The position numbers were made by a program, and so were the translations under genes. 33,480 nucleotides of DNA, from positions 1-33,480 of the IMG/VR virus record IMGVR_UViG_3300036981_000004; one strand, given 5' to 3'. Of the stretch, positions 101 to 28,447 are shown one piece after another (position 1 is the first letter of the stretch; each line of letters starts with the position of its first letter). The notes under the pieces were generated by a model. That model saw only the letters and a list, made by a program, of their open reading frames with translations. It was not told where the DNA came from and searched no databases. This stretch comes from a virus.

Positions 101-3100
101 ATGATAATGCAGGACTTTGGTGGTGATTACGCTTCAATGACTATGGACTCGGATGGTGGAGGCTGGACCTTTTTCGGAGGCGGCGGCGGCGGCGGCGGCG
201 GATCTGACTTTGGTGGTGGCGGAAGTTTCTTTAACTCTAATAACTTTGATGGCGGCTTTGATTATACACCTGTGAACGACTTTGGTGGTGGCGGCTTTGA
301 CAATGTTATGAACGATACCGTAATTAACAACAATCTACCAGGTTGGATGGATCCTACATACTTTACACCTGGACAAGCAGATTTAACAACACAACCTCTT
401 GATTCATCATATACTAGTGACACTGGAGCAATTAACGACTATAGTGGTGACTATACAGCGCCGGCTGACAGTAGCCCAACAAGCACAACTGAGACACTCG
501 CAGACATAGGTAACCAAACTTACACAGGCGGCGACACATTTGACACAAGTAATGTAGATTGGGACAATGTATTTGCCAACGTTGATTTAGGAAGTTTTAC
601 CCCTGATACTGTTGCGAATTTAGTTGACACAAATCTTGGTAACTTAGACTTATCTAGTTTGAACACAATAGCAGACACTACACCAGTAACTACAGCAGTA
701 GATACACCTGTGACTACTGTATCTAATGTAGTAACAACACCAGTAGTAAACACAGCAACACAACCAGTAACAGAATTGCCCAGCACAACAGCGAATGTTA
801 CATCGGTTAATCCTGCTGATACAGTCACAGTAGCAAACACTGGATCAACATTCAGCACAAATGCTAGTGACTATGTTGAACCAGCATTGACAGCATCAAA
901 CATTGGTGGAGTAGTTACAACAGATTATGGAACGTTTGGCAATACAGTATCAAGCAATGTAGTATCAAACTTGCCTGCTGATAGTGTAGCAGTACAAAAT
1001 TCAGGCTCAAACACATATACCATAGTTGATACTACTAGTAATAATGTATCGGTAGTAAACAATCAAGGTCAAACAGTTATTGATAGTAGCGCAATTGCCA
1101 ATGGTGTAACACTTGTTAACAATGCTACAATAACAAATATGGTTGATAGTGGGCAGATAACATTAGTTGATGCTAACACAATACCTGCAGGTAATAGTGT
1201 TGTATTATATACAGGCGACCAAATATCATATGAAGGGGCAAATGGAGTATACACTACAAATGTTATAGTACAAACAAGCGATAATGTAGTCGTATCAATA
1301 CCTGCTGTAACATTATCAAATGGTACAACTACTGGAACAGTTATTAACTTTGACCCAGCGAACTCCGCATCATCAACAACAACTATAAACGATACAGCAA
1401 CTACACAAGTTCAAGCAAACACATCACCGATCGGTGGTATACTTGGCACAGGCACAAGCGATCCAAACGCAAACACATCAGCATTGTTTGGTGAAGGTTC
1501 ATACGCTGGCAACGCATTATTAACAACTGATATTGCTCCAATTGGAACTGGCGTAGGCCCTACTGAAAACATTGATTTAGGTAATGTAATATGGATGCCT
1601 AATCTATCTGATGCTACTACATCAACTACTGATACATCAAGCACCAATCCAAACGCAGCAATATCAACAACTGATTCGCAGGCTAACACAGCAGTATTAG
1701 ATACATCTAGTACAGCGTCAACTACAGCAAATGTAGCAACGATTGACACAACTCAAAATGGTAACGCAACAACAATAACATTTGATGATGGTTCCACGAT
1801 GACTTACAATAGTGATGGAACCGTTTCTACAACAGCAACAACTAGTGATTCTACACAAGCAAATGCTAATACGGTAAGTGGACCTGTAGTTGCTGGGGCA
1901 ACATCGTTTACAACTACTGACGGAGCAAGTGGTATAGTAGGACCTGTGACTCCATCTGATATTGTAACAGCAAATGTATTAACAGGGGCAACTGGAATAA
2001 CATCAGTATTGCCTGTAGTTCCGTCTGACACTGGTGACGGTGGTGGCGGAGCAACTGGTATAACAGTAACTGGCGCCACTGGCATAAATGGTTCAACAGG
2101 ATTAGTTGTTGTGGGAGCGACTGGAGAAGTTACAGGCGCAAGTGGAACAACAGAAGGCGCAAGTGGCGTTACCGGAGCAAGTGGCACCGAAGGTGCTACA
2201 GGATCTACTGAGGGTGCAAGTGGCGTTACCGGAGCAAGTGGCACAGAAGGTGCTACAGGATCTACTGAGGGTGCATCTGGTGCTAGCGGAGCAAGTGGCG
2301 CATCTGGTGCAAGTGGAGCAAGCGGCGCATCAGGTGCTAGCGGCGCAAGTGGAGCAAGTGGCGCTTCAGGCGCTAGCGGCATAGAAGGCACCTCTGGATC
2401 TACAGGTGTTATTGGGCCAGTAAGCCCAGACGATATAATAGGTGCTAGTGGCTTCCCAGGAGCGACAGGCATAGTAGTTGGAGCATCAGGAATAGTTGGA
2501 GCAACAGATGGTGCATCAGGTGTAGAAGGTGCTAGTGGAGCAAGTGGCGCTTCAGGCGCTTCAGGCGTAGAAGGTGCTAGTGGAGCAAGTGGCGCTTCAG
2601 GCGCTTCAGGCGTAGAAGGTGCTAGTGGCGCTTCAGGCGCTTCAGGCGTAGAAGGTGCTAGTGGAGCAAGTGGCGCTTCAGGCGCTTCAGGCGTAGAAGG
2701 TGCTAGTGGCGCTTCAGGCGCTTCAGGCGTAGAAGGTGCTAGTGGCGCTTCAGGCGCTTCAGGCGTAGAAGGTGCTAGTGGAGCAAGTGGCGCTTCAGGC
2801 GCTTCAGGCGTAGAAGGTGCTAGTGGAGCAAGTGGCGCTACGGGAATAACAGGAGCCAGCGGTGCCACAGGATCTACCGGCCCAGGTGCAAGCGGCGCTA
2901 CAGGATCTACTGGTGGCGCATCGGGAGCAACAGGTGCCAGCGGAGCGTCAGGCGCTAGTGGAGCAAGTGGCGCTTCAGGCGCTAGCGGTGCATCCGGAGC
3001 AAGTGGAGCATCTGGAGCAAGTGGTGCTTCAGGTGCTAGCGGAGCAACTGGCATCGTTGGAGCAACTGGCGGCGCTACAGGTCCTACTGGAGCGAGTGGA

Positions 3101-3682
3101 GCAAGTGGTGCATCAGGCGCTACAGGCATTATAGCAGACTATTTAAATCCAGGATTTATTCGCCCAGGTTCATTCTACGATACAAGTGACATTGCTCAAA
3201 GTAAAAACTATTGGGGACAACATGCGTTCCAAACAGGTCCTACATTTAATGAGACATTGTTTAATACACAGCCTCAGGCGCCTAATACACCGTGGGGCTT
3301 ACAACAACTTGCTAAACCGTTAACAAGTCAAGATATACAAGACTTGATAGATGGAAAAGAACTTAAATCAACAAAGGTCAAAGATGCTACACGCAGAGTT
3401 CCAATTACAGATGCTAACAAGAATGTAATGAACTTTGACTATAGTAAAGTTGGACAATTAAAAACAATACCTACTACACCTCTAGCAAAAACTACAGCAA
3501 ATAATACGGCTACTAGTGATGCTACAGCATTATCAATGATACCTACTGGCTATGATAAGGTAACTAAAGAACTTGGACCACAATGGTTCAACAAACAGCA
3601 AGCAGCGGCAGCAGCGGGTGACTGGGACACTTATTATACGATACAACAACAAGTTGCTAGCATAATGAAAACGCCCAGATAA
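101..3682 (+). CDS. Collagen-like repeat virion protein (1193 aa)
   Basis: Large low-complexity protein, probably exposed on or attached to the virion. Residues 1-70 are glycine-rich with a poly-Gly run. Residues 70-620 are Thr/Val/Asn/Ser-rich and probably beta-structured. Residues about 668-1010 are Gly-X-Y repeats dominated by GAS with interspersed GVE, GAT and GIT, which is the pattern of bacterial and phage collagen-like triple helices. Residues 1011-1193 are a non-repetitive tail ending in a helical Q/A-rich segment. The repeats are encoded by near-identical DNA (2525-2812). ATG 101 is preceded by AAAGG at 84-88 and by a TAAATA element. Genes for ejection-type proteins follow on the same strand. 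Tail fibre, head decoration or tail-tip protein are all possible; attachment to the host surface is inference. The collagen-like nature is clear, the exact role is not. Confidence 0.75.
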   Translation: MIMQDFGGDYASMTMDSDGGGWTFFGGGGGGGGGSDFGGGGSFFNSNNFDGGFDYTPVNDFGGGGFDNVMNDTVINNNLPGWMDPTYFTPGQADLTTQPLDSSYTSDTGAINDYSGDYTAPADSSPTSTTETLADIGNQTYTGGDTFDTSNVDWDNVFANVDLGSFTPDTVANLVDTNLGNLDLSSLNTIADTTPVTTAVDTPVTTVSNVVTTPVVNTATQPVTELPSTTANVTSVNPADTVTVANTGSTFSTNASDYVEPALTASNIGGVVTTDYGTFGNTVSSNVVSNLPADSVAVQNSGSNTYTIVDTTSNNVSVVNNQGQTVIDSSAIANGVTLVNNATITNMVDSGQITLVDANTIPAGNSVVLYTGDQISYEGANGVYTTNVIVQTSDNVVVSIPAVTLSNGTTTGTVINFDPANSASSTTTINDTATTQVQANTSPIGGILGTGTSDPNANTSALFGEGSYAGNALLTTDIAPIGTGVGPTENIDLGNVIWMPNLSDATTSTTDTSSTNPNAAISTTDSQANTAVLDTSSTASTTANVATIDTTQNGNATTITFDDGSTMTYNSDGTVSTTATTSDSTQANANTVSGPVVAGATSFTTTDGASGIVGPVTPSDIVTANVLTGATGITSVLPVVPSDTGDGGGGATGITVTGATGINGSTGLVVVGATGEVTGASGTTEGASGVTGASGTEGATGSTEGASGVTGASGTEGATGSTEGASGASGASGASGASGASGASGASGASGASGASGASGIEGTSGSTGVIGPVSPDDIIGASGFPGATGIVVGASGIVGATDGASGVEGASGASGASGASGVEGASGASGASGASGVEGASGASGASGVEGASGASGASGASGVEGASGASGASGVEGASGASGASGVEGASGASGASGASGVEGASGASGATGITGASGATGSTGPGASGATGSTGGASGATGASGASGASGASGASGASGASGASGASGASGASGASGATGIVGATGGATGPTGASGASGASGATGIIADYLNPGFIRPGSFYDTSDIAQSKNYWGQHAFQTGPTFNETLFNTQPQAPNTPWGLQQLAKPLTSQDIQDLIDGKELKSTKVKDATRRVPITDANKNVMNFDYSKVGQLKTIPTTPLAKTTANNTATSDATALSMIPTGYDKVTKELGPQWFNKQQAAAAAGDWDTYYTIQQQVASIMKTPR
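179..199 (+). repeat. (GGC)7 trinucleotide repeat coding poly-Gly
   Basis: Seven uninterrupted GGC codons encode a glycine run at about residues 27-33 of the collagen-like protein. This is an unusual GC-pure microsatellite in an AT-rich genome, and slippage would change length in frame. Confidence 0.9.
2525..2812 (+). repeat. In-frame minisatellite of 45- and 36-bp units
   Basis: Seven tandem units that all begin GAAGGTGCTAGT and end GGCGCTTCAGGCGTA. Unit A is 45 bp. Unit B is 36 bp and lacks the nine bases GGAGCAAGT. The order is A A B A B B A, followed by a partial A at 2813. Units of each class are identical by eye. All lengths are multiples of nine, so gain or loss of units keeps the Gly-X-Y register. 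Confidence 0.9.
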
Positions 3683-3719: not shown

Positions 3720-4451
3720 ATGAGTTTTGGAAAATCATCATCAACAACAACCCCTACACTAACGCAAGAGCAAAAAGATCAAATTGCCGCGCAAACAGGG
3801 TTCTTTACGGGAACAATAGCACCCACATACACAAATGCTGTTACAGGCGCTACTGATGTTTACAATAAGAATGTGGGTGGTGTAGTTAACGCAGCACAAA
3901 ATCTTGCTGGGACAGCAGGACAAGCACAACAAGCATTGGGTGAAACTGGTGAGTCAGCATTACGCACAGGCATTGGTGGTCTTGAAAGTTTGTTTAGTCC
4001 AGACTATGAGAAGAATCAGATCATGGCAGCGATGGGTCCTGCTCAACAACAATATCAACAAAACATTGCGGCACAAAAAGCACAATTTGGTGGCACTGGT
4101 AATCTAGGTAGTGCTAGAGAAGCATTAGCAGGACAGCAACTAGCAGGTCAAGCACAATCACAACAAGCAGCAACAGCAGCACAGATTCAAAGAGATGTTG
4201 CAGCACAAAGAGCAGGAGTTGGAGCAACACTAGCAAATTTAGGTCAAGGCGGCATTGGTCAAGCATTAGGCGCAGCAGGTCAACAAGTATCAGCAGCAAT
4301 GACACCACAACAATTATACAATCAATATGCTAGTGTAATCTTTGGAACACCAGCAGCAAGTTATACCCCTGACTTTAGAGGCACTCAATCAACTTCAGAA
4401 ACAGGTAGTAAAATGGGTTTTAATGCTGGCGACGCATTTAAGTTCTTCTAA
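3720..4451 (+). CDS. Probable internal virion / ejection protein (243 aa)
   Basis: Gln/Ala/Gly-rich, largely helical protein without Cys. The N-terminus is Ser/Thr-rich and polar (MSFGKSSSTTTPTLTQ). The middle carries the FGGTGNLGSARE-type Gly/Ser segment seen in many podovirus internal virion (pilot) proteins, followed by an amphipathic Ala/Gln helix region (residues about 120-200). The C-terminus ends ...GFNAGDAFKFF. The Shine-Dalgarno AAAGGA lies about 8 bases before the ATG. It opens a compact run (3720, 4465, 6530, 8326) with gaps of 13 and 1 bases and one ATGA overlap, typical of ejection cassettes. Assignment rests on composition and order rather than a diagnostic motif. Confidence 0.5.
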   Translation: MSFGKSSSTTTPTLTQEQKDQIAAQTGFFTGTIAPTYTNAVTGATDVYNKNVGGVVNAAQNLAGTAGQAQQALGETGESALRTGIGGLESLFSPDYEKNQIMAAMGPAQQQYQQNIAAQKAQFGGTGNLGSAREALAGQQLAGQAQSQQAATAAQIQRDVAAQRAGVGATLANLGQGGIGQALGAAGQQVSAAMTPQQLYNQYASVIFGTPAASYTPDFRGTQSTSETGSKMGFNAGDAFKFF

Positions 4452-4464
4452 GGATTAATGATAT

Positions 4465-6528
4465 ATGGCTTATGAAAATTATGACGCATTTGGTGGACAA
4501 GAAACTGAAGAAGATCGCAGACGCAGACTAGAGCAAGAAGCACTTGCCCAAGCTGGTGGCGCTAAACCAGGTCTTGGAACACCTAATGAAACACCTGAAG
4601 GTGCTCCAGTGGCACCTGTTAGTCCGGATCAACTACAACAAAATGTTCAGGTAGATGAACAAAGAGCGCAAAGAGAAGCGCAAGCAAGAGCATTACAACA
4701 ACAAGCAGCATTACAGCAGCAGCAACCAGCGCCACAGCAGGATCAAGGTGGATTAGGAAATATAAATCCTATTAATAAACAACAATATTTAGGGCAACAA
4801 CCAGTACCTCAACCTGCACCACAACCTGTAAGTCAATTCAGTCCTGGCTATGGTCAACAAGGTCCGGGTATGAGAATGCCACAACAAATGGCACAGCCAG
4901 GTATTAATTTACAAGCAGCAGCACAGAAGTATCAGGAGATACAAGATGATCCATTAAAGTTGTTACAATTTGGAACACATGCTCAAGTCCCAACATACTT
5001 ACAAGATCGTGCGAAAAGTCGTGCAGCAGACATTATCAATCAACAAAGAGATAAGCAACAAGCACAAGAACAATTACAAACTATGAGTCCTAGTGATTTA
5101 GCATCAGCATTGAAGCAAAGAACTAGTGGCGGCAGTTGGCTAAAAGCAATTGCGTTTGGTATGTTGGGTATGCAACAATCAGCACAAGAAGAAGCAGCAA
5201 AACTAGGCTTAGGTAAAGATACCTACACTCAAATTAATGGTCAACCAGCAATTGTAAAGATGTCAGCAAATGGTACACCTATTAATGGCTACAATGCGGC
5301 AACTGGTAAAGCATTAACTCCAGAAGAACTTGTAATGGCAGCACAATATAGTACAGTACAAAAAGGTGCTGAAACACATACTGGCAAGATGCAGGATGTA
5401 ACTACTGGTGAAGTTTATTATGAAAGAACTACACCACAAGGTATTCAATTAGTTGATAACAATGGTAAGATTTACAAAGGCGCTAGCAACAACCTACGCC
5501 CATTTGGTATTGGTAGTGATATCAACACTAAAAACACAATTCAATTACAAGAACTACAAAACAAATTAGCATACGCTGGTCCTACAGCAAGTGCTGAAGT
5601 TAGAGAAAGAATCATTGGTGAAAGTGAAGCCAAGTTTGGTCCATTGCCAGAAGAATATAAACGACAAATTAGAGGTGGAACACCATCACCTGCTGGTGTG
5701 GCTCAAAACAGAATACCACCAGGTGGAGCACCAGCAGCAACTACTAGTGGCGTAGCACCATGGCAAGGTAATCCTGCTGATTTAGTTAAGCAAGCATTGA
5801 CTATAACTAATCCAACAGATCGTCAAGGCGCTATCAATAGTTTAGTAAAACAATATGGGCCTGATGCTGTTAAGCAATTAGTAGCACAGGCAACTCAACC
5901 ACAACAAGCACAAAGACCTGTTGCTCCTGTAGCACAAGCACCACAAGCACCAGTCGCGGCACCAGTTGCTCCAATTGCTAGTAGTCCTGCTCAAAGAGAA
6001 GCACAACTTAAGGCTCAACAAGAAGCAGAAGCGGCAGAAATACAGAAACAGAAAGAATTAGACCTTGCTAGATTAAAGCCGCCAGAAGCAGCATTAGGCA
6101 CAAACGCAGCACAAGATGTAAAGAATCAATACTTTGCTGATCAAACATATAGTTTAGTACAACCAATCGCAAGTTTGATTAAAGAATCTACTGGATCTGG
6201 TCTTGGAACTAGCGTAGATACTTTAGCAAGTAAGATTGGTGTTGGCACAAAAGGTCAACAAAACATTGCTAAGTTAGAAGTATTGGCTTACCCATTACTT
6301 GCTAATACGCCACGCTTTGAAGGCTCACAATCTGATTATGATGTTCAAGTTTACAAGCAAGCATCAGGCGCTTTTGCGGATAGCAAGAAGCCAGTTGAAG
6401 TTCGTCTAGCAGCATTACAAGCAATGGTCACACTAATGAAGAAGTATGACAAGGCTGGAAAAAATGATTGGTCGTTTGGCGAGAAGGGTCAACCAGGCAC
6501 AGCACAAAATCCTATAAAGTTAAACTAA
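4465..6528 (+). CDS. Probable internal virion / ejection protein (687 aa)
   Basis: Residues 1-160 are disordered and Gln/Pro-rich. A more ordered block follows (about 160-350), including a hydrophobic stretch WLKAIAFGMLGM near residue 227 and a segment with a TYTQINGQPAIVKMSANG beta-like pattern. Residues about 395-530 are an Ala/Pro/Gln linker and 530-687 a helical end domain. Composition and position between two similar proteins fit a large ejection protein that leaves the virion with the DNA. AAGGATTAATGATAT precedes the ATG. The function is inferred. No lysozyme-like or transglycosylase motif is visible. Confidence 0.5.
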   Translation: MAYENYDAFGGQETEEDRRRRLEQEALAQAGGAKPGLGTPNETPEGAPVAPVSPDQLQQNVQVDEQRAQREAQARALQQQAALQQQQPAPQQDQGGLGNINPINKQQYLGQQPVPQPAPQPVSQFSPGYGQQGPGMRMPQQMAQPGINLQAAAQKYQEIQDDPLKLLQFGTHAQVPTYLQDRAKSRAADIINQQRDKQQAQEQLQTMSPSDLASALKQRTSGGSWLKAIAFGMLGMQQSAQEEAAKLGLGKDTYTQINGQPAIVKMSANGTPINGYNAATGKALTPEELVMAAQYSTVQKGAETHTGKMQDVTTGEVYYERTTPQGIQLVDNNGKIYKGASNNLRPFGIGSDINTKNTIQLQELQNKLAYAGPTASAEVRERIIGESEAKFGPLPEEYKRQIRGGTPSPAGVAQNRIPPGGAPAATTSGVAPWQGNPADLVKQALTITNPTDRQGAINSLVKQYGPDAVKQLVAQATQPQQAQRPVAPVAQAPQAPVAAPVAPIASSPAQREAQLKAQQEAEAAEIQKQKELDLARLKPPEAALGTNAAQDVKNQYFADQTYSLVQPIASLIKESTGSGLGTSVDTLASKIGVGTKGQQNIAKLEVLAYPLLANTPRFEGSQSDYDVQVYKQASGAFADSKKPVEVRLAALQAMVTLMKKYDKAGKNDWSFGEKGQPGTAQNPIKLN

Positions 6529-6529
6529 G

Positions 6530-8329
6530 ATGCCTATATACGTATATAATGGTGTTCATTATGATATTGACACTACTGACCCAGTAGCAGCAAAAAATAA
6601 GATTATTGCGAGTTTGCCACCTGAAAAATCTACAGTAGATAAATTTTTAGAACCACTTAAGAATATGAGTATTCAAGATTGGGGACAAAACTCAATGCTT
6701 GCTCCAGCACTTAAAACTATGAGTGCTGTAACACCATTTGGAATGTTACAACCAAGAGTAGGCGCTCAAAATTTACAACAAGGTAGTAAGCAGTTAGTTA
6801 ACAAAGGTATGGAGATGGGTAAGGGTCTTGCTAATATGGTAATGAATCCTGCCGAGACAGCACAAAATGCTTATAACGCAATAACTGAACGACCAGCAGA
6901 AACAGCAGGCAATTTGGCTAAAAGTATTATATATGATCCAGAAACTATGATTGGTGCTCCAGCAGCAGCAAAGTCATTATATAATACAGGTAAAGTAGCA
7001 GTAAAAGCACCTTATAATTTTGCGGTGGGTGCTGGTAGAGGACTGGCTTACCCTCAAGGATCAAGTCCAAATTCAGCATTATTGCCAATAAGTCCTACAT
7101 ATGTTCCGCATGAACAAGTTAAAGAATTTATGGCTGGTAAAAGACCAGCATCAAGTTTAACACAAGAACCAACAGCACCATTATATGAAAACAATCCAGT
7201 TGCTAACTGGGCATATGGTATGGCACCTGAAAATGCTGACAAGTTAAAATTAGTTCCAGCAGCAGGAAAATTCTTTGAAGGATTAGGTGAGAACATTGGT
7301 TCAGGTTGGAGAACAAATCCATTTCAAACAGTTGGAGATATCGCAGGCTTAGTTGCTGGTGTAGGTCCAGCATATTCAGCAGCAAAAGCAGTTCCAACAG
7401 CAGCAAGCGCACTATTAAGTAGAGCAACAAATTTGGATCCCGCATTTCCTGCCGCGCAAGCAGCAGCAATGGCACGAGAAGCAGCAGGTCCAGTTGCTCC
7501 AGCAACGCCTCCAGCACCACCAGCAGGTCCACCACCATTACAATTAGGTTATACTCCTGCTCAACCTCCACCAATATATGTTTCACCAGAAGGTGTAGCA
7601 TCAACAAACATGAGAGCAGCGGATCGTGCTGGTATTAATAGTAAATACCCACCACCTACAGGTCCTGGCCCAGTATCACCAGCAGAATTGTCACAACAAG
7701 TAGCAGCAAGCAAGATTCCTGAGAGTGGACCACAAGCAATGCCTGCTCCAGCAGCACAACCAGTTGTACCACCTACTCCAGTCGTTGCTCCACCAGTAGC
7801 ACAACCTAAGCCAGCGCCTGTAGTTGAAACACCACCTGCGCCAACAGTAGATATTAAGGCATTAAGAGCAAGATTAGATCAAAATGAAAATCAAGTAGCA
7901 CAATTGCGTGAACCAATGTTAGGTCGTAATCCTGCTGAAATGGATCCAGCAGAAGTAGCAGCATATCGTCAACAAATGGATCAGTTAGGCAGAGAACATG
8001 TTAATTTACAAAAACAAATAACTGATTTTGAAGAATTAGCAAAGAAAGAATCAAGAGCAACAGCAAAGGCTGAAAAAAAAAGGCAACCAAATAATGTAAG
8101 TCAAATGTTGACTGAAGATACTGTGTTTAATACAAAACAAGAATGGGAAAAAGCAAATCTATTCAATACATTAGCAGGTAAAAAGCCAATTGGTGGCTAC
8201 AAAGAAGGCACAAATGTTGTTAGACATGAAAGACCAGATTATGGTTCAATTCCTGATTCATTACGCAAAGAATTGCCTGACATAAGTATAGTAAAGCGAA
8301 ATGCTAAAGGAAAAAGGATAACAGAATGA
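6530..8329 (+). CDS. Probable internal virion / ejection protein (599 aa)
   Basis: The N-terminus (MPIYVYNGVHYDIDTTDPVA, then KNKI) matches the short ..Y.V.G..Y......P..A...I module that begins many large podovirus internal virion proteins. Residues about 50-110 contain Gly/Ala/Met amphipathic stretches that could insert in membranes. Residues 310-440 are Pro/Ala-rich and disordered. Residues about 445-520 form a charged likely coiled coil, and the end is basic. It starts one base after the previous stop, so translation is coupled. Its stop overlaps the next ATG (ATGA at 8326-8329). The role in DNA ejection is inferred from the N-terminal module and the operon. Confidence 0.5.
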   Translation: MPIYVYNGVHYDIDTTDPVAAKNKIIASLPPEKSTVDKFLEPLKNMSIQDWGQNSMLAPALKTMSAVTPFGMLQPRVGAQNLQQGSKQLVNKGMEMGKGLANMVMNPAETAQNAYNAITERPAETAGNLAKSIIYDPETMIGAPAAAKSLYNTGKVAVKAPYNFAVGAGRGLAYPQGSSPNSALLPISPTYVPHEQVKEFMAGKRPASSLTQEPTAPLYENNPVANWAYGMAPENADKLKLVPAAGKFFEGLGENIGSGWRTNPFQTVGDIAGLVAGVGPAYSAAKAVPTAASALLSRATNLDPAFPAAQAAAMAREAAGPVAPATPPAPPAGPPPLQLGYTPAQPPPIYVSPEGVASTNMRAADRAGINSKYPPPTGPGPVSPAELSQQVAASKIPESGPQAMPAPAAQPVVPPTPVVAPPVAQPKPAPVVETPPAPTVDIKALRARLDQNENQVAQLREPMLGRNPAEMDPAEVAAYRQQMDQLGREHVNLQKQITDFEELAKKESRATAKAEKKRQPNNVSQMLTEDTVFNTKQEWEKANLFNTLAGKKPIGGYKEGTNVVRHERPDYGSIPDSLRKELPDISIVKRNAKGKRITE

Positions 8330-8757
8330 CAACACAAGAAATACTAACGCAAATCTTTAACAACAACTTTGTTGCTTACTTTCGTAGTCACGCAGCACAT
8401 GTTAATATCACTGGTAGAAATTTTCGCAGCGATCATAAATTACTTCAAGGTGTCTACGAGCGCAGACAAGAACAAATTGACAAGATAGGTGAAATACTAC
8501 GCACTATGCAGGAGTATATGCCATGCGATATCAATGATGTTATTAAAGATAGCACAATACCTACTGATGCGATTGAAGGTAAAGCAGATGATTTATTAGA
8601 AACAGTTATGATGGATTTAGAACATCTGTTAAATGATTATAAACTATTAATTAATATTGCTGATAGTGAGGGATATGAAGAAATAAGTAATTACGGGCAA
8701 GACCAAGCATTAGATTTAGAAAAATCTATTTGGATGTTGCGTAGCACATTAGATTAG
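8326..8757 (+). CDS. dps: Dps-like ferritin-fold protein
   Basis: The 143-aa product matches the Dps family along its length: helix A (FNNNFVAYF), then H25, TGRNF, H37, D52 and E56 at the spacing of E. coli Dps H51, H63, D78 and E82, a middle helix region, and the hallmark C-terminal helix ending SIWMLRST. The position equivalent to Dps D67 is Q41, so the inter-subunit ferroxidase site is altered. There is no lysine-rich N-terminal extension of the kind that binds DNA in E. coli Dps. Family members form 12-subunit shells that oxidise Fe(II) and protect DNA. The start overlaps the stop of the upstream ejection-type gene as ATGA, so it is translationally coupled and probably expressed with virion proteins. 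Whether it is packaged cannot be seen. The fold call is strong; activity is uncertain. Confidence 0.8.
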   Translation: MTTQEILTQIFNNNFVAYFRSHAAHVNITGRNFRSDHKLLQGVYERRQEQIDKIGEILRTMQEYMPCDINDVIKDSTIPTDAIEGKADDLLETVMMDLEHLLNDYKLLINIADSEGYEEISNYGQDQALDLEKSIWMLRSTLD

Positions 8758-8812
8758 ATTAAATCGCTACAGCACTATCAAGAACTAGAGGATTTTGCGA
8801 TTTTCTAATCTA
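8755..8812. other. Imperfect inverted repeat in a convergent gap
   Basis: Left arm TAGATTAAATCGC (8755-8767) pairs with right arm GCGATTTTCTAATCTA (8797-8812), with a TTC bulge and a loop of about 29 bases. It sits between the stops of the Dps-like gene and the minus-strand gene. It could help end transcription from both sides, but there is no T-run typical of an intrinsic terminator. Confidence 0.3.
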
Positions 8813-8820
8813 GGTATCAA

Positions 8821-9330
8821 CTAATTGGCAGGAGTAGCTTGTGTCGTGCTTACTTTTTTATATGCGTAACTACCCCGAACATCATAACCCGCTTTCTTAT
8901 GTAATTTTAGAAAGCCATCTTGGTCTTTACGCATAGTTGTTGAACAGATAATACTAACATTACAAGATTTTGCCCAACTTTCCCACAAATTAATCATGTC
9001 AACAACTAACTTAACTTTTGTTCTTACAGGTAACTGTAAATCTATGTGTGCCATTCGCACCAAAATCATCTCGTCATCAGACCATGATGCTTTTTCACCA
9101 CGAACGCACCAAGTATATGCTAGTAATTTGTTATTTTCGTCAATTGCGACGGAGAGTAATTGAGATAGAGGGCCATAGAATTGATTTACTACAGCAAGTG
9201 TGATATTTCGTCCGTAGATTACGGGTTCAGGGGTAAAGATATTGTCAATTTCATTCTGAAAATGAGTTTCAGCCATATTAACAATATTGTCAATGTCAAG
9301 TCCAGTAGCGGGACGCCAGTTGTAGTTCAT
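8821..9330 (-). CDS. GNAT-like N-acetyltransferase (169 aa)
   Basis: Only minus-strand gene of the window. It starts with a YNWRPAT..D acceptor-domain opening, has central strands (LLAYTWCVRG...MILVRMAHIDL) followed by a helix, and ends with F.KLHKKAGYDVRGSYAYKK, the usual beta6-beta7 end of GNAT enzymes. The acetyl-CoA pyrophosphate loop, normally R/Q-x-x-G-x-G/A, is degenerate (QLPVRTKVK), so activity is not assured. Such proteins are common as accessory genes in environmental phages; the substrate is unknown. AAAGGCAAAGC precedes the ATG (complement of 9328-9330), and a minus-strand TAAATA lies at 9357-9352 with suitable spacing. It is inserted between the ejection and packaging regions with convergent and divergent neighbours, like a separately expressed cargo gene. 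Confidence 0.6.
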   Translation of the reverse strand: MNYNWRPATGLDIDNIVNMAETHFQNEIDNIFTPEPVIYGRNITLAVVNQFYGPLSQLLSVAIDENNKLLAYTWCVRGEKASWSDDEMILVRMAHIDLQLPVRTKVKLVVDMINLWESWAKSCNVSIICSTTMRKDQDGFLKLHKKAGYDVRGSYAYKKVSTTQATPAN

Positions 9331-11441: not shown

Positions 11442-11761
11442 CAGCCCGTGATAGTGAAATAAGACAAGCACAGGAACATGCTAGACATAACGATACATTA
11501 ATACTTCAAAAGATTAATGCTAGTCATCGTATAGCATTTCAAGAAAAGTTTCCAGGACAAATTGAACATATCTTACGCTTACTAACTGAACGCTTACAAG
11601 CTGGGTTAGATAAGCGTGATAATGTTGTATTAGAAGATGTGTCAACATGGAAACTAAAACCTGCTGAAGTACATGATATGGCAACTGCCATTCGTAACAT
11701 ATTTGAAGTTCGTCAACAAGTGAGGGTAGAAGATGCTATCAACAGAAGTATTGATGGCTAG
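11438..11761 (+). CDS. Helical protein coupled to TerL; possible small terminase (107 aa)
   Basis: Almost wholly helical, charged protein (RDSEIRQAQEHARHNDTLI..., HILRLLTERLQAGLDKRD, a C-terminal EVRQQVRVEDAINRSI helix). Start 11438 is preferred over the in-frame 11426 because it gives an ATGA overlap with the upstream stop. Its last 29 bases overlap the TerL start. Small size, helical make-up and position immediately before TerL are those of a terminase small subunit, so it competes with the 9390 gene for that role. There is no visible helix-turn-helix signature. Confidence 0.55.
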   Translation: MTARDSEIRQAQEHARHNDTLILQKINASHRIAFQEKFPGQIEHILRLLTERLQAGLDKRDNVVLEDVSTWKLKPAEVHDMATAIRNIFEVRQQVRVEDAINRSIDG

Positions 11762-13343
11762 AGCCTTGCGCTGGGCAGTAGACAAATACGACCTAACAAT
11801 AGATTCACTTAAAACAATACCTGGCCCACTTAAAAGCCAACTACAAGAACTAGCAATTAGCGTATGCGATGACATGCGCTATAATCAACTAAAATACTTT
11901 CGCCCATTTGACCATCAACGAACATTTTTTCGTACTGGTAATTGTGAGCGTAGAGGTATACTAGCAGCAAACCGTATTGGTAAAACAGTATCAACTTGCT
12001 ATGAAACTGCCATGCACCTGACAGGAATATATCCTGAATGGTGGGATGGTTATCGCTTTGACACAGCAATCACTTGTATGGTAGCAGGTGAGGGCTGGAG
12101 TCAAGTCGCACTCGTATTACAAAACGAATTATTAGGGACTCAAGATGTCAAAATTAACGAAAGTATTGGATCAGGCGCTATACCTCGCAGTTGTATTATT
12201 ACTGATACAATGCGTAATGACGGCGCAAATTGTATTGGTGTGGAAATTAAGCATATTAGTGGTGGCAACAGTTATTTGCTTTTTGCCAACTATACGCAAG
12301 AAGTTAGACAACTTCAGGGTTTCAAATTAAATTTAGCCGTATTTGACGAGCAGCCACCAGATGACTTCTTTAGTGAGATGGTAACTCGTACAGCAACAAC
12401 ACAAGGCAAAGTGTTATGTTCTTTTACTCCATTAAAGGGATTGAATGGATTAGTTAGCAAGTTCTGGAACAAAGAAGAAGGCTATGAATTCATCCGTGTT
12501 GCTTGGAGTGATGTACCAGAGTATGATCCCTGGGGACAACCATTTTTGTTAATGTCAACTCGTAGACAACTTGAACGAGATTACTTACCACATGAAAGAG
12601 AAGCACGAATTGCTGGTAAACCCGTTATGGGCAAAGGCGCTGTGTTTCAACTTAGTAACTGGCCCACATATGCTACAGGAGATATTGATTTTACTCGTAT
12701 GCCAAACATACATAGAATTATATCATTAGACTTGGGATTAGTAAACGATAAAACAGTTATTAGTTTAATATACTGGGAACCACATGAACGAACAGCATAC
12801 TTACACAAGCAAATCATTGTTCAGGGAATTGAAGAAGCAGTACCCACACAGTATATTAATCATCTACTTCGTCCTGAGGTGTTTGGTACTCCTATTGTTT
12901 TACCTGCTGACGCAAATACTAGTGGCAGATATACTATGAGTAGTAGTTCAATTAGAGAATTATTTGAGAGCTATCAATTGAATGTATATGAGAAAGCAAT
13001 AATGAATCCGCCAGATAATGAAGGTCGCACAACTAATCATAAGAGTTATGGTATTAATCAGATGCGTCAAATGTTAGAAGTTGGAAGTTTAATGGTTAAT
13101 GAGAATTGTACTCAATTCTTAAGTGAAGCACAGAACTATTATGTAGACGAAAGAGGTCGTTTTAGCGATCCAGACGATTGTATTGATTCGGTGCGCTATG
13201 GAATATTAGGTTGTTTACAAGGTATAGCAGAACCTTGGGATAACAGATCACCACAGCAACGCATGGCAGCGCAACGAGATCGTTATGTTAAGCGTGATGA
13301 TAGTAACAAACCTGCTTGGAAAAAATCATTTTCAGCAAATTAA
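11733..13343 (+). CDS. terL: Terminase large subunit (ATPase-nuclease)
   Basis: Packaging motor that pumps DNA into the prohead and cuts it. Walker A is AANRIGKT (residues 78-85), Walker B LAVFDE (201-206, with D205 and E206), and SFTPLKG (230-236) fits the coupling motif. The C-terminal RNase-H-like nuclease shows a first acid in SLDLG (D333), a second in LPADAN (D393) and a third cluster DPDDCIDSVRYG (D479 to D485). At 536 aa it has normal TerL length with both domains intact. ATG 11733 is preceded by GAGGGTAGAAG and overlaps the upstream gene by 29 bases. The portal follows after a 43-aa ORF, the standard packaging order. Confidence 0.95.
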   Translation: MLSTEVLMARALRWAVDKYDLTIDSLKTIPGPLKSQLQELAISVCDDMRYNQLKYFRPFDHQRTFFRTGNCERRGILAANRIGKTVSTCYETAMHLTGIYPEWWDGYRFDTAITCMVAGEGWSQVALVLQNELLGTQDVKINESIGSGAIPRSCIITDTMRNDGANCIGVEIKHISGGNSYLLFANYTQEVRQLQGFKLNLAVFDEQPPDDFFSEMVTRTATTQGKVLCSFTPLKGLNGLVSKFWNKEEGYEFIRVAWSDVPEYDPWGQPFLLMSTRRQLERDYLPHEREARIAGKPVMGKGAVFQLSNWPTYATGDIDFTRMPNIHRIISLDLGLVNDKTVISLIYWEPHERTAYLHKQIIVQGIEEAVPTQYINHLLRPEVFGTPIVLPADANTSGRYTMSSSSIRELFESYQLNVYEKAIMNPPDNEGRTTNHKSYGINQMRQMLEVGSLMVNENCTQFLSEAQNYYVDERGRFSDPDDCIDSVRYGILGCLQGIAEPWDNRSPQQRMAAQRDRYVKRDDSNKPAWKKSFSAN

Positions 13344-13519: not shown

Positions 13520-15790
13520 ATGTTGGACATTAAAAATATCCCCGTAAGTAACATAAATCAGAACAGAAAGATAAATGCTACTTTCGTTCGTATGAAAAAT
13601 CAAATGGATGTCAAAATGGCGAGTTATTTGCGCTATTTGGGCACAAAGAACGCAGTAAATCGTGCTAGTGATTATCATTACTTATGTCTTGCTGTTACAG
13701 ATAGTACAGCACCTGTAAACGGGATAGATTACATTCACCCTAGTGTTAAACCAGTAGTTGACTATGCTACAGCAGTTATTGCTAAAGGATTGATGCCAAA
13801 CGGCGAAATTAACTTTGAATTCGTTGCTGATGGTGAAGATGATGAGATAGCAGCAAGACAAGCAACTGATATGGTTAGCAAAGTTGTCAATCAAATGAAT
13901 GATCCACACTTTATATTAGAACGCTGGATCATGGACGCTACCATGCACAAGAATGGTATGATGATGATCAAACCAATTCGTGAACCTATAGTGCGTTATA
14001 TTGAAACACAAGGCACAATGGATCAACTAAGAGCATTTGAGCAGCAAGCAAGTGAAGGTGGACTTACAACATTAAGACAAAGCAAACGCAGAATTAATGT
14101 TGACATGGATAATGCGTTAGCAGAAATACAACAAAATCTTGGACAAGCAAAAAAAGATTTAGGTAAGCAGAAATTAGATGACTTTTTAGGTGCGCTATCG
14201 CTCGGTAGTGAGGATGAATCATTTGGTGAACCAATTGATCATAACATGATGGAACTAGATAACGAGCAAATGATATTAACTGATGCTGTTAATCGCAATA
14301 CTATCTATTCAGCAAAATATAAACTATCTGGTTATAATCTTAATGTTAGATTTGTCCCTATAGCACAACACTATTGGATATGTGATCCTACTGTGCCACA
14401 AATGAGAGATCAACCTTTCTGTGGTTACTATGATCCAATGACTATTCAAGAAGCAATGGAAATGTATCCAGGCATTGATTTAGAAGAATTTAGACTTCAT
14501 GCTGAATACAATATGAATGGTGCTTACCAAGCAGGTAGTGTGTTAAACAACTTAGCAATTCATGCTAGAGACTCTGTGCCTGTTATGGGTATACCTGTTA
14601 GTTCAGCAGCAAGTGCTGATCCAGATAGTCGCCAAGTATCTATTGTTACTGTATGGAACAAATATGATATTGACGGTGATGGTGAACTAGAATTGGTAGA
14701 ACTAATCTATAGTGGTAGTTATATTATATCAGCAAAAGAAGTTGAATTCATTCCTGTTGCGAATATGTGTCCTAAGCCATTGCCAGGCAACTTCTATGGT
14801 ATGAGTATTGCTGAAAGCGTTATTCCCATGCAGGAATACAACACATCAGCAGCAAGAGCAGAAATACAATTGGGTCTATTGACAGCAACACCTCGTATTG
14901 GTGTTAAGCCAGATCGTTTAGACTTTGAGATGTTACAAGATGGTGAAAGTGCTATCTTTATATTAGACAGTAAGTTTGATCCAGCAAAAGACATATATCA
15001 GATTCCTCCTCCAAGTGGCAACTTAGACTTCTTGGAAAGATCAATGAATCGTATCCAACAAGATACTATGGCTATGGTTGGTATGACAACACCTACAGAT
15101 GTATTCAATCCAGAAGTTATGTCAGCAGGTAATAGTGGTATCAAACTACAATTAGCATTGACACCAAATCAAATCATACAAGACAATACAGTTCGCAATA
15201 GCGCAGAAGGATTGCGTGAAGCTATATGGTTAGTATGGCGCACATTGATTCAGTATGGTGATGATTATGGCGTTAAGAAATTAGCGCAAGGTTTTCACCC
15301 AGATAAAAAGCCAGACTTCTTAGATTATGCTGCCTGGGACGATATGAACTTCTGTGATAGAAAAGAAGTTCATTTAGAATTAGCATTAGGTATGATGAGT
15401 GAAGAAAACTCATTGGCACGACTACAAATTATACAGAAATGTCAGACTGAGTTATATCAAGCAACACAAGCAATGGTACAATCAGGAACATTAACTCCTG
15501 AAATCTACAAAAAGATTAAAAAGCCATTTGCTGATACATTATATGTTCTTGGAGTTAAAGATTGTAATAGTTACTTACCAAGTGATGATGAAGTTGCTCA
15601 GATGATTAAACAAGGTCAAGAAGCAATGAAGAACAAAGAACCTAGCCCAGAAGATAAGAAGCGACTAGCAAGTGCTAATTTAGATGGTGTTAAGGCACAA
15701 CAAATAATGACTGAGTTAAGTGGACATGACGCAGAGACTCAGTTAGATTATATGGCATTAGCGCAAGGAAAGCCAAAAGTATACTCGTAA
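13520..15790 (+). CDS. Portal protein (P22-like, 756 aa)
   Basis: Forms the ring at the head vertex through which DNA passes and on which TerL and the neck dock. The length fits P22-type portals. Recognisable stretches are the crown/wing-forming middle, a long charged insertion (residues about 170-245) and the conserved PLPGNFYGMSIAESVIPMQ (near 420-440), followed by the helix AARAEIQLGLLTATP. The last 120 residues are a helical, Gln/Lys-rich barrel-like end. AAAGGAACCATCA precedes the ATG. TerL lies upstream and the scaffold and capsid genes downstream, as expected. Confidence 0.88.
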   Translation: MLDIKNIPVSNINQNRKINATFVRMKNQMDVKMASYLRYLGTKNAVNRASDYHYLCLAVTDSTAPVNGIDYIHPSVKPVVDYATAVIAKGLMPNGEINFEFVADGEDDEIAARQATDMVSKVVNQMNDPHFILERWIMDATMHKNGMMMIKPIREPIVRYIETQGTMDQLRAFEQQASEGGLTTLRQSKRRINVDMDNALAEIQQNLGQAKKDLGKQKLDDFLGALSLGSEDESFGEPIDHNMMELDNEQMILTDAVNRNTIYSAKYKLSGYNLNVRFVPIAQHYWICDPTVPQMRDQPFCGYYDPMTIQEAMEMYPGIDLEEFRLHAEYNMNGAYQAGSVLNNLAIHARDSVPVMGIPVSSAASADPDSRQVSIVTVWNKYDIDGDGELELVELIYSGSYIISAKEVEFIPVANMCPKPLPGNFYGMSIAESVIPMQEYNTSAARAEIQLGLLTATPRIGVKPDRLDFEMLQDGESAIFILDSKFDPAKDIYQIPPPSGNLDFLERSMNRIQQDTMAMVGMTTPTDVFNPEVMSAGNSGIKLQLALTPNQIIQDNTVRNSAEGLREAIWLVWRTLIQYGDDYGVKKLAQGFHPDKKPDFLDYAAWDDMNFCDRKEVHLELALGMMSEENSLARLQIIQKCQTELYQATQAMVQSGTLTPEIYKKIKKPFADTLYVLGVKDCNSYLPSDDEVAQMIKQGQEAMKNKEPSPEDKKRLASANLDGVKAQQIMTELSGHDAETQLDYMALAQGKPKVYS

Positions 15791-17372: not shown

Positions 17373-18542
17373 ATGGCAGAAATTACAACCAGTCAAATTG
17401 GTAATGGTACAACCGCTTATGGGTCAGATATCGTTGTCAAGGACTTAGATTTAGACGTATCCAATCGTGTTAAAGATGATACACCTGTATTGAACATGTG
17501 TATGAGTAAAAAGCGCAAAGTTAACTCAACATTGCCTTTATGGACAGACGACATTTATCGTCTACCACAAGTTCAAGCGCAAGTTGAAGGTGCTACTGTT
17601 AGTACCAGTCAAGCAGAAAGCAATCAGCGTTACAACTTAGGTAACTACACACAGATTTTCAGTACTGTTATCGCAGCATCTGGAACCGCTCGTGCAGTTA
17701 TGCAATCTGGTGGCGATCCTCAAGCATATCAAGAAGTCAAGCAATTGATTGAATTGATGTTTGACGTTGAGCAGCAATTAGTTCGTAACGATCAAATCGG
17801 TACAAAATATGCTGGTCAAACAGGAACAGCAAGTGGTCTTCCAGCAGGTCAAACTGGCCGCCGTATGGGTTCATTAGCAGCATTCGCTGGTACGCAATCT
17901 TTCAACGTAACCTCAAATGACAACACTGATATGGTGACTTTCACTAATAATGAAGATACCGACTCCGCTACTTATGTAGTAGGTCAGTTGAATGTTACTG
18001 GTGGTGGTAGTAACTACTTTGGATCTAGCGATTTCGTGAATCAAGTATTCAGTCCAGTATTGTATAAGCAATTGGTAACTGTTGCTGAAGAACGCTACAA
18101 CGCTAAAATCCGTTCAATGGTTGCTCCAACAAGTTTGAGAACAATCATTAGTGATAACATCGTTAGTTCAAACAACAACGTAAACCGTCGTAATGTTGAG
18201 CGTGGTGACACGATTCAAACATACGAAGGTGACTTCAACTACACTTATGAAGTTTATGATTCTTGGATCATGGACCAATCAGGTGTAAGTAACTCAATCT
18301 ACTTCTTGAATGAAGATGTGTTACAATGGGGTTCATTGCGTGATCTAGGACCTAACAATGAAGTATTCAGTAATGCTGACGCTTCACTAGACCAATTCAT
18401 CATGGAAGGAACATTAATTGTTCGTAACCCTGCTGGCGTTGGTATGTTGAATCAGATTACCAATACAGGTTCACTAGTAACTACACCACGTGGTTCTACA
18501 ATAGTACAACGTGTAAACACTGGTGCTGGCGATACATATTAA
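17373..18542 (+). CDS. Major capsid protein (SU10/DUF5309 type, HK97 fold)
   Basis: The 389-aa product matches the DUF5309/SU10-type major capsid family: an N-arm with DTPVLNMCMSKKRKVNS, a W.DD.YR region, the conserved NYTQIFSTVIAASGTARAV segment (about residues 90-110), a spine helix (QEVKQLIELMFDVEQQLV), then R.MGSLAAF and a C-terminal P-domain with YNAKIRSMVAP...IISDNI. This family forms HK97-fold capsids in phiEco32/SU10-like podoviruses and many marine and freshwater phages. TAAGGAGAATATT gives the strongest ribosome site of the window, as expected for the most abundant protein. A perfect intrinsic terminator follows at 18564-18588. No TAAATA is close upstream, so it is probably read from the scaffold promoter. 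Confidence 0.9.
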   Translation: MAEITTSQIGNGTTAYGSDIVVKDLDLDVSNRVKDDTPVLNMCMSKKRKVNSTLPLWTDDIYRLPQVQAQVEGATVSTSQAESNQRYNLGNYTQIFSTVIAASGTARAVMQSGGDPQAYQEVKQLIELMFDVEQQLVRNDQIGTKYAGQTGTASGLPAGQTGRRMGSLAAFAGTQSFNVTSNDNTDMVTFTNNEDTDSATYVVGQLNVTGGGSNYFGSSDFVNQVFSPVLYKQLVTVAEERYNAKIRSMVAPTSLRTIISDNIVSSNNNVNRRNVERGDTIQTYEGDFNYTYEVYDSWIMDQSGVSNSIYFLNEDVLQWGSLRDLGPNNEVFSNADASLDQFIMEGTLIVRNPAGVGMLNQITNTGSLVTTPRGSTIVQRVNTGAGDTY

Positions 18543-20422: not shown

Positions 20423-24760
<4,338 letters not shown>

Positions 24761-28024: not shown

Positions 28025-28447
28025 ATGGCAACAACAAAATTAAAAGGTGTCTCACTACAAGACAGATTGCATTATTATACAAAGATCAATAGTAATGGAT
28101 GCTGGGAATGGCAAAACAGCAAAAACAATAGTGGGTATGGATTCATTCGTGATGGTAAAAAAATGCGAACGGTTCATAGAGCAAGTTATGAACTACATCA
28201 CAACACAATTGTCCCACATGACATATGTGTTTACCATACATGCAGCAATTATATTTGTCTTAATCCTGCTCATCTAGTAACTGGGTTACGCAAAGATGTA
28301 ACAGACTATATGATTTTACAGGGCAATGATAACTCGTTTGGTGGCAACGCTATTGAATCTTGTAAACATTGTAACAGGTCAATGAAGCGCAATTTATTAA
28401 AAAGATGGCACAATGACAAATGTAAACTTTTTACAAGTTTGATATAA
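28025..28447 (+). CDS. HNH endonuclease with C-terminal zinc motif (140 aa)
   Basis: Free-standing HNH nuclease of the HNH_3 type common in phages. The N-terminus has NSNGCWEW and SGYGF. The core shows HR (H51) with YELHH, then VYHTCSNYICLNPAHL with H71, C73, C78, N80 and H83, the beta-beta-alpha metal site. A second metal site CKHC...H...C (C113, C116, H129, C133) ends the protein. Such genes often act as homing endonucleases or nicking enzymes that help spread themselves or neighbouring DNA. AGGAACAGAAA precedes the ATG. It lies between the tail and replication parts, next to the structured RNA at 28462-28601. Confidence 0.85.
   Translation: MATTKLKGVSLQDRLHYYTKINSNGCWEWQNSKNNSGYGFIRDGKKMRTVHRASYELHHNTIVPHDICVYHTCSNYICLNPAHLVTGLRKDVTDYMILQGNDNSFGGNAIESCKHCNRSMKRNLLKRWHNDKCKLFTSLI

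Follow-up and report, generated by a model that had tools for sequence, protein, structure and literature searches.

The open reading frame at 8326-8757 encodes what is, judging by profile matches and a predicted structure, a genuine Dps-type mini-ferritin of the HP-NAP kind. Its family membership is ordinary, the protein being a known mini-ferritin, and Dps proteins of phages have been described before; the new and unusual part is that in one clade of uncultured, short-tailed phages dps is universal and holds a fixed position at the end of a block of ejection-type genes. A function near the virus particle is suggested by this constant position. We consider it about 70% probable that the protein is a tail-less, acidic mini-ferritin of the HP-NAP kind, made late as an active ferroxidase that limits Fenton damage to phage DNA.

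Gene order, distribution and translation context

The window, i.e. the whole stretch of DNA that was analysed, is a 33,480-base virus record from a podovirus-like phage, in which a primase/helicase pair can be recognised along with fibre-like proteins. The tail-fibre-like genes at 101-3682 and 20423-24760 are both very long and repetitive, and they match the same PHROGs. The features considered here are:

3720-4451, plus strand: 243-aa protein that resembles T7 gp14 in position and composition only; a conserved marker and Dps-independent bait
4465-6528, plus strand: putative large ejection protein of 687 aa, its C-terminal part matching phrog_33352; regularly next 5' of gene X
6530-8329, plus strand: gene X, 599-aa hypervariable putative ejected or internal virion protein with an interchangeable N-terminal leader, 'MPIYVYNGVHYDIDTTDPVAAKNKI'
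8314-8318, plus strand: AAGGA, Shine-Dalgarno-like in sequence, 7 nt 5' of the dps ATG and within the end of gene X
8326-8329, plus strand: ATGA overlap of dps start and gene X stop (from the sequence, and from gaps over 95 loci)
8326-8757, plus strand: dps, Dps-type mini-ferritin gene, 143 aa (Pfam, PHROG and PDB matches, model; ligands H25, H37, D52, E56; variable Q41)
8746-8815, strand not assigned: candidate terminator, a hairpin (-18.3 kcal/mol, z -3.3) that separates dps from the convergent gene
8821-9330, minus strand: acetyltransferase-like gene, GNAT-type by eye with a weak PHROG match; convergent, 3' of dps
11733-13343, plus strand: terminase large subunit, which places the clade
13520-15790: portal
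17373-18542: major head protein

The gene order in relatives is the 243-aa gene, the 687-aa gene, gene X, dps, the convergent acetyltransferase-like gene, small genes and the terminase. Position, composition and weak homology suggest that the first three are ejection-type genes. The first-pass annotation had called the gene upstream of dps internal-virion-type; no strong named family stands behind any of the three genes. The nearest named genome is MW202484 ('Podoviridae sp. isolate ctfne034'), with 50% identity in the terminase and 47% in the portal.

Relatives were gathered in two sets. The first was recruited with Dps peptides, and because its baits included conserved Dps residues, a second set (alignment A2) was recruited through the conserved 3720-4451 gene, with Dps not used as bait. 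The 3720-type gene brought in 80 contigs, of which 77 have dps at the same place; the remaining three stop 610, 1204 and 2446 nt past the bait gene, short of the dps site, so that dps is present in all 77 contigs that extend as far as the site. The comparison of neighbourhoods among related phages, which had been recommended at first pass, accordingly gives a clade-fixed position at which dps ends the ejection-type block. In the sister clade typified by MW202484, the 3720-type bait gene is found in 23 of 24 records, whereas the A1 profile detected dps in none of the 24 (nor did the Pfam ferritin profile; controls were positive, and some records are perhaps incomplete). Given 77/77 in the one clade and 0/24 in the other, dps was either gained at the base of the clade or lost in its sister. 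That virions are assembled without dps in the sister clade speaks against the role proposed below.

Dps correlates in its pairwise distances with the acetyltransferase-like gene (r 0.37) and the terminase (r 0.32), but only poorly with the 3720-type gene (Mantel r 0.11, not significant), which argues for an exchange of alleles at a fixed dps locus. Co-inheritance of dps with the 3720-type ejection-type gene is consequently unsupported, and these distances do not demonstrate that dps co-evolves tightly with the ejection apparatus. The search for a cellular source or host gave no good candidate: no relative appeared among the genome contigs searched with Dps patterns, and the terminase search yielded just one distant match, together with an edge match of 50 aa in a Bacteroidota MAG that has no other window gene.

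Several neighbours of dps vary in their own right. Gene X ranges from 163 to 1081 aa across 90 distinct relatives, and its short N-terminal modules (among them YNGxxYDI, YEVNGQRVEF, FDPDAFL, DYSKLSDEEL, GYxDEEI and EDGRTALFDD) swap on bodies of differing length, as if one leader were exchanged between cargo proteins. The acetyltransferase-like gene adjoins dps on its 3' side in most relatives and is conserved alongside it. A second 3720-type ORF lies further downstream in a few contigs (L077:12776-13891, L211:11554-12237 and L220:9265-10056), and four others (L033, L065, L069 and L070) carry ORFs resembling the HNH endonuclease of the window (28025-28447) between the acetyltransferase-like gene and the terminase region.

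The start of dps and its coordinates are correct, M1 being kept in 61 of 61 distinct sequences of the first set, and the overlap of its ATG with the upstream stop, as annotated at first pass, is found as described with the 6530-8329 ORF. Over 95 distinct loci, the exact 4-base overlap occurs in 23 (offset -4), followed by offsets of +8 (17 loci), +1 (14) and +3 (10); taken together, most starts fall between -4 and +18 nt of the upstream stop, and most of those without the exact overlap between -1 and +18. Translational coupling of dps to gene X would agree with such spacing, whether overlapping or merely close, although it is no proof. A promoter scan found no promoter-like site on the plus strand just 5' of dps, and such sites were fewer than in shuffled sequences; an own promoter was therefore set aside, on weak evidence. 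The terminator scan did not report the hairpin at 8746-8815, the loop of which exceeds the limit of that scan. The earlier suggestion that synthesis of the protein is tied to the virion-gene block is supported, and the linkage is stronger than had been claimed, since it holds throughout the clade.

Family, fold and ferroxidase site

The 143-aa protein matches Pfam Ferritin (PF00210) with an E-value of 2.8e-12 (47.2 bits against a curated cut-off of 24.5) and the phrog_3636 profile with 4.6e-29, as do all 40 members of alignment A1, and its best matches among solved structures are HP-NAP (7e-15) and Helicobacter cinaedi CAIP (3e-14). The median pairwise dN/dS of dps, about 0.13, points to purifying selection, and together with the Pfam, PHROG and PDB (7e-15) matches it rules out a chance ORF. 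An AlphaFold2 model built from 40 relatives (mean pLDDT 95.5) has the five Dps helices (3-27, 33-60, 69-75, 87-114 and 118-142), i.e. a four-helix bundle plus the short BC helix, with a TM-score of 0.94 to HP-NAP and 0.95 to Listeria Dps (0.92-0.95 with CAIP included). The Dps-like identity proposed at first pass is thereby borne out both by the profile searches, which put the protein inside the ferritin superfamily, and by the bundle in the predicted structure; the SIWMLR motif is present as stated.

The ferroxidase site of Dps proteins is built across the two-fold interface, and a carboxylate at the position of E. coli D67 is common, but not universal, among them. H25, H37, D52 and E56 had been noted to match the spacing of the Dps ferroxidase residues; they do so, and they are invariant in 61/61 distinct relatives of the first set and in 69/69 distinct Dps of the second (window included). 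The second count controls for a bias of the bait pattern, given that recruitment there went by way of the ejection-type gene at 3720-4451. These four core ligands stay fixed in sequences that change freely at many other positions. As the site spans the two-fold interface, ligand conservation also argues for the dimer.

The carboxylate at the D67 position is absent from the window Dps, which has Q41, and the 69 sequences of the second set carry Q (42), G (16), E (5), K (5) or R (1) there. The residue was thus correctly read at first pass, but it is not a defect peculiar to the window Dps: in the alignment, HP-NAP has E at this position and CAIP has Q. CAIP is still filed as a Dps, and its crystal holds 12 iron-binding sites at putative ferroxidase centres (PMC5225449), so Q41 is no argument for a dead site and this conclusion was dropped. 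The residue after the first ligand His is Trp in HP-NAP and V, A, I or L in the Dps of the clade; with this replacement and an unconserved position 41, the predicted ferroxidase kinetics may be weak.

Comparison with known Dps proteins

HP-NAP and CAIP (PDB 5lbh) resemble the window Dps in length, in fold (TM 0.92-0.94), in the ligand spacing 25/37/52/56 and in having no N-terminal tail, and CAIP also in its Q at position 41. They differ in identity (about 27-29%), in the Trp after the first ligand His, where the window Dps has V, and in being cellular and not phage proteins. Among phage proteins, the nearest annotated relative seen is A0A6J7WGJ1 (BFVD), a Dps of an uncultured Caudovirales phage with 42% identity and a TM-score of 0.96. 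The ferritin-like protein of Synechococcus phage S-EIV1 is the top-ranked match of a named phage (33%) and shares the four ligands; its position 41 holds G, which some relatives within the clade also have. However, it has an N-terminal extension, and its gene adjoins sulfate adenylyltransferase in a 79-kb genome. The C3 podophages phiEco32, SU10, 7-11, GAP52 and Privateer likewise encode a Dps, but identity is about 28-31% where detectable (GAP52 and 7-11), 7-11 and GAP52 have D at position 41, and their dps genes lie among replication and nucleotide-metabolism genes. In none of the named phages inspected does dps lie among ejection genes.

A Dps has been described in Lactobacillus phages (PMC6669764). 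The 'Gratiaviridae' of the gut encode ferritin-like enzymes, namely Dps and Mn-catalase; in contrast to our case, the available portion of that account reads Dps as a gene for oxidative-stress tolerance and makes no mention of a linkage to ejection genes (PMC8008677). For the Proteus phage Privateer, mass spectrometry of virions purified on CsCl detected the Dps (PMC7881722). The Dps of SU10 was detected in PEG-concentrated phage (PMC4281155), and because this material was not CsCl-purified, the detection does not demonstrate residence in the virion. Two further papers were discarded as precedents, one from Lake Baikal that concerned a giant-virus match and one on groundwater phages in which DPS is the name of a sequencing method.

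Five longer proteins of uncultured phages in BFVD (A0A6J7WPK9, A0A6J7XDU5, A0A6J7WIS1, A0A6J5RFH1 and A0A6J5N5R9; 333-763 aa) contain Dps-fold domains, and three of the five are named prohead protease in the database annotation, possibly representing a capsid-linked Dps.

Proposed role and location

By homology, Dps would form a 12-mer shell, which we infer from the fold and the interface ligands, with ferroxidase sites across each two-fold interface to which H25 and H37 would be contributed by one subunit and D52 and E56 by its partner. Fe(II) would be oxidised there with H2O2 or O2, and the ferric product stored inside the shell. Synthesis would probably be late, from the last part of the ejection-gene transcript, beginning at the gene X stop or a little past it, and Fenton damage to phage DNA would be limited during packaging, carriage or delivery.

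The chances that Dps resides in the cytosol of the infected cell or in the virion are about even. On the one hand, the particle may carry the mini-ferritin, inside it or on its surface, and perhaps co-eject it, the protein acting in the virion or just after entry, a reading to which we give slightly less than an even chance. It draws on the fact that dps always closes the ejection-type cassette, on the Privateer protein in CsCl-purified virions, and on the Dps-fold domains within longer phage proteins, some of them named prohead protease. However, Dps itself has no leader, a shell of about 9 nm should not pass a podovirus tail unless unfolded, the dps of Privateer lies among replication genes and not ejection genes, and the SU10 protein comes only from PEG-precipitated material. 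That Dps is a regular virion component, taken up together with the ejection proteins or next to them, and that every infecting particle thereby brings protection from iron and peroxide (or iron itself) for the incoming DNA, is a more specific claim that we put forward tentatively.

On the other hand, dps could be an auxiliary stress gene on the late transcript, with a product that stays in the cytosol and is never packaged, which likewise falls just short of even odds. The location of other phage dps genes with nucleotide-metabolism or other non-structural genes agrees with this, as does the stress-tolerance reading given to the gut-phage Dps in the portion of that account cited above; yet an ordinary auxiliary gene would be expected to be patchy and mobile, and dps is here universal and fixed.

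A catalytically dead protein, with only its helical bundle used in structure or assembly, could account for the unconserved position 41 and for the location of dps in the virion block, but is improbable in view of four core ligands invariant in 69/69 sequences of which many positions vary freely.

The N-terminal tail is absent, as the first-pass annotation had noted: helix 1 of the model begins at residue 3. A Lys/Arg-rich terminal tail is likewise lacking in the window Dps, the net charge of which is -13 (-8 to -21 in the family; pI about 4.5), and NCBIfam PRK09448 scores far below its cut-off. DNA binding of the E. coli type is therefore unlikely on sequence and model, given the missing tail and the net charge of -13. 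A DNA-compacting Dps as in E. coli, which the name of phrog_3636 ('DNA binding protein') would favour, is accordingly very improbable for such tail-less, acidic proteins. Of the three roles proposed at first pass, protection from iron-driven oxidation fits the conserved ferroxidase site, but hardly through direct binding to DNA, and residence in the virion has its precedent in Privateer. The first-pass observation is thus confirmed and its interpretation upheld in part.

As a rule, the dps of a phage is regarded as an optional stress gene. Where, as in this clade, dps is always present and locked to the ejection-type block, a particle-borne, iron-detoxifying shell can be tested for directly, in that it can be asked whether a Dps shell aids entry or survival under a peroxide or iron load, and the route of iron in phage particles would become measurable.
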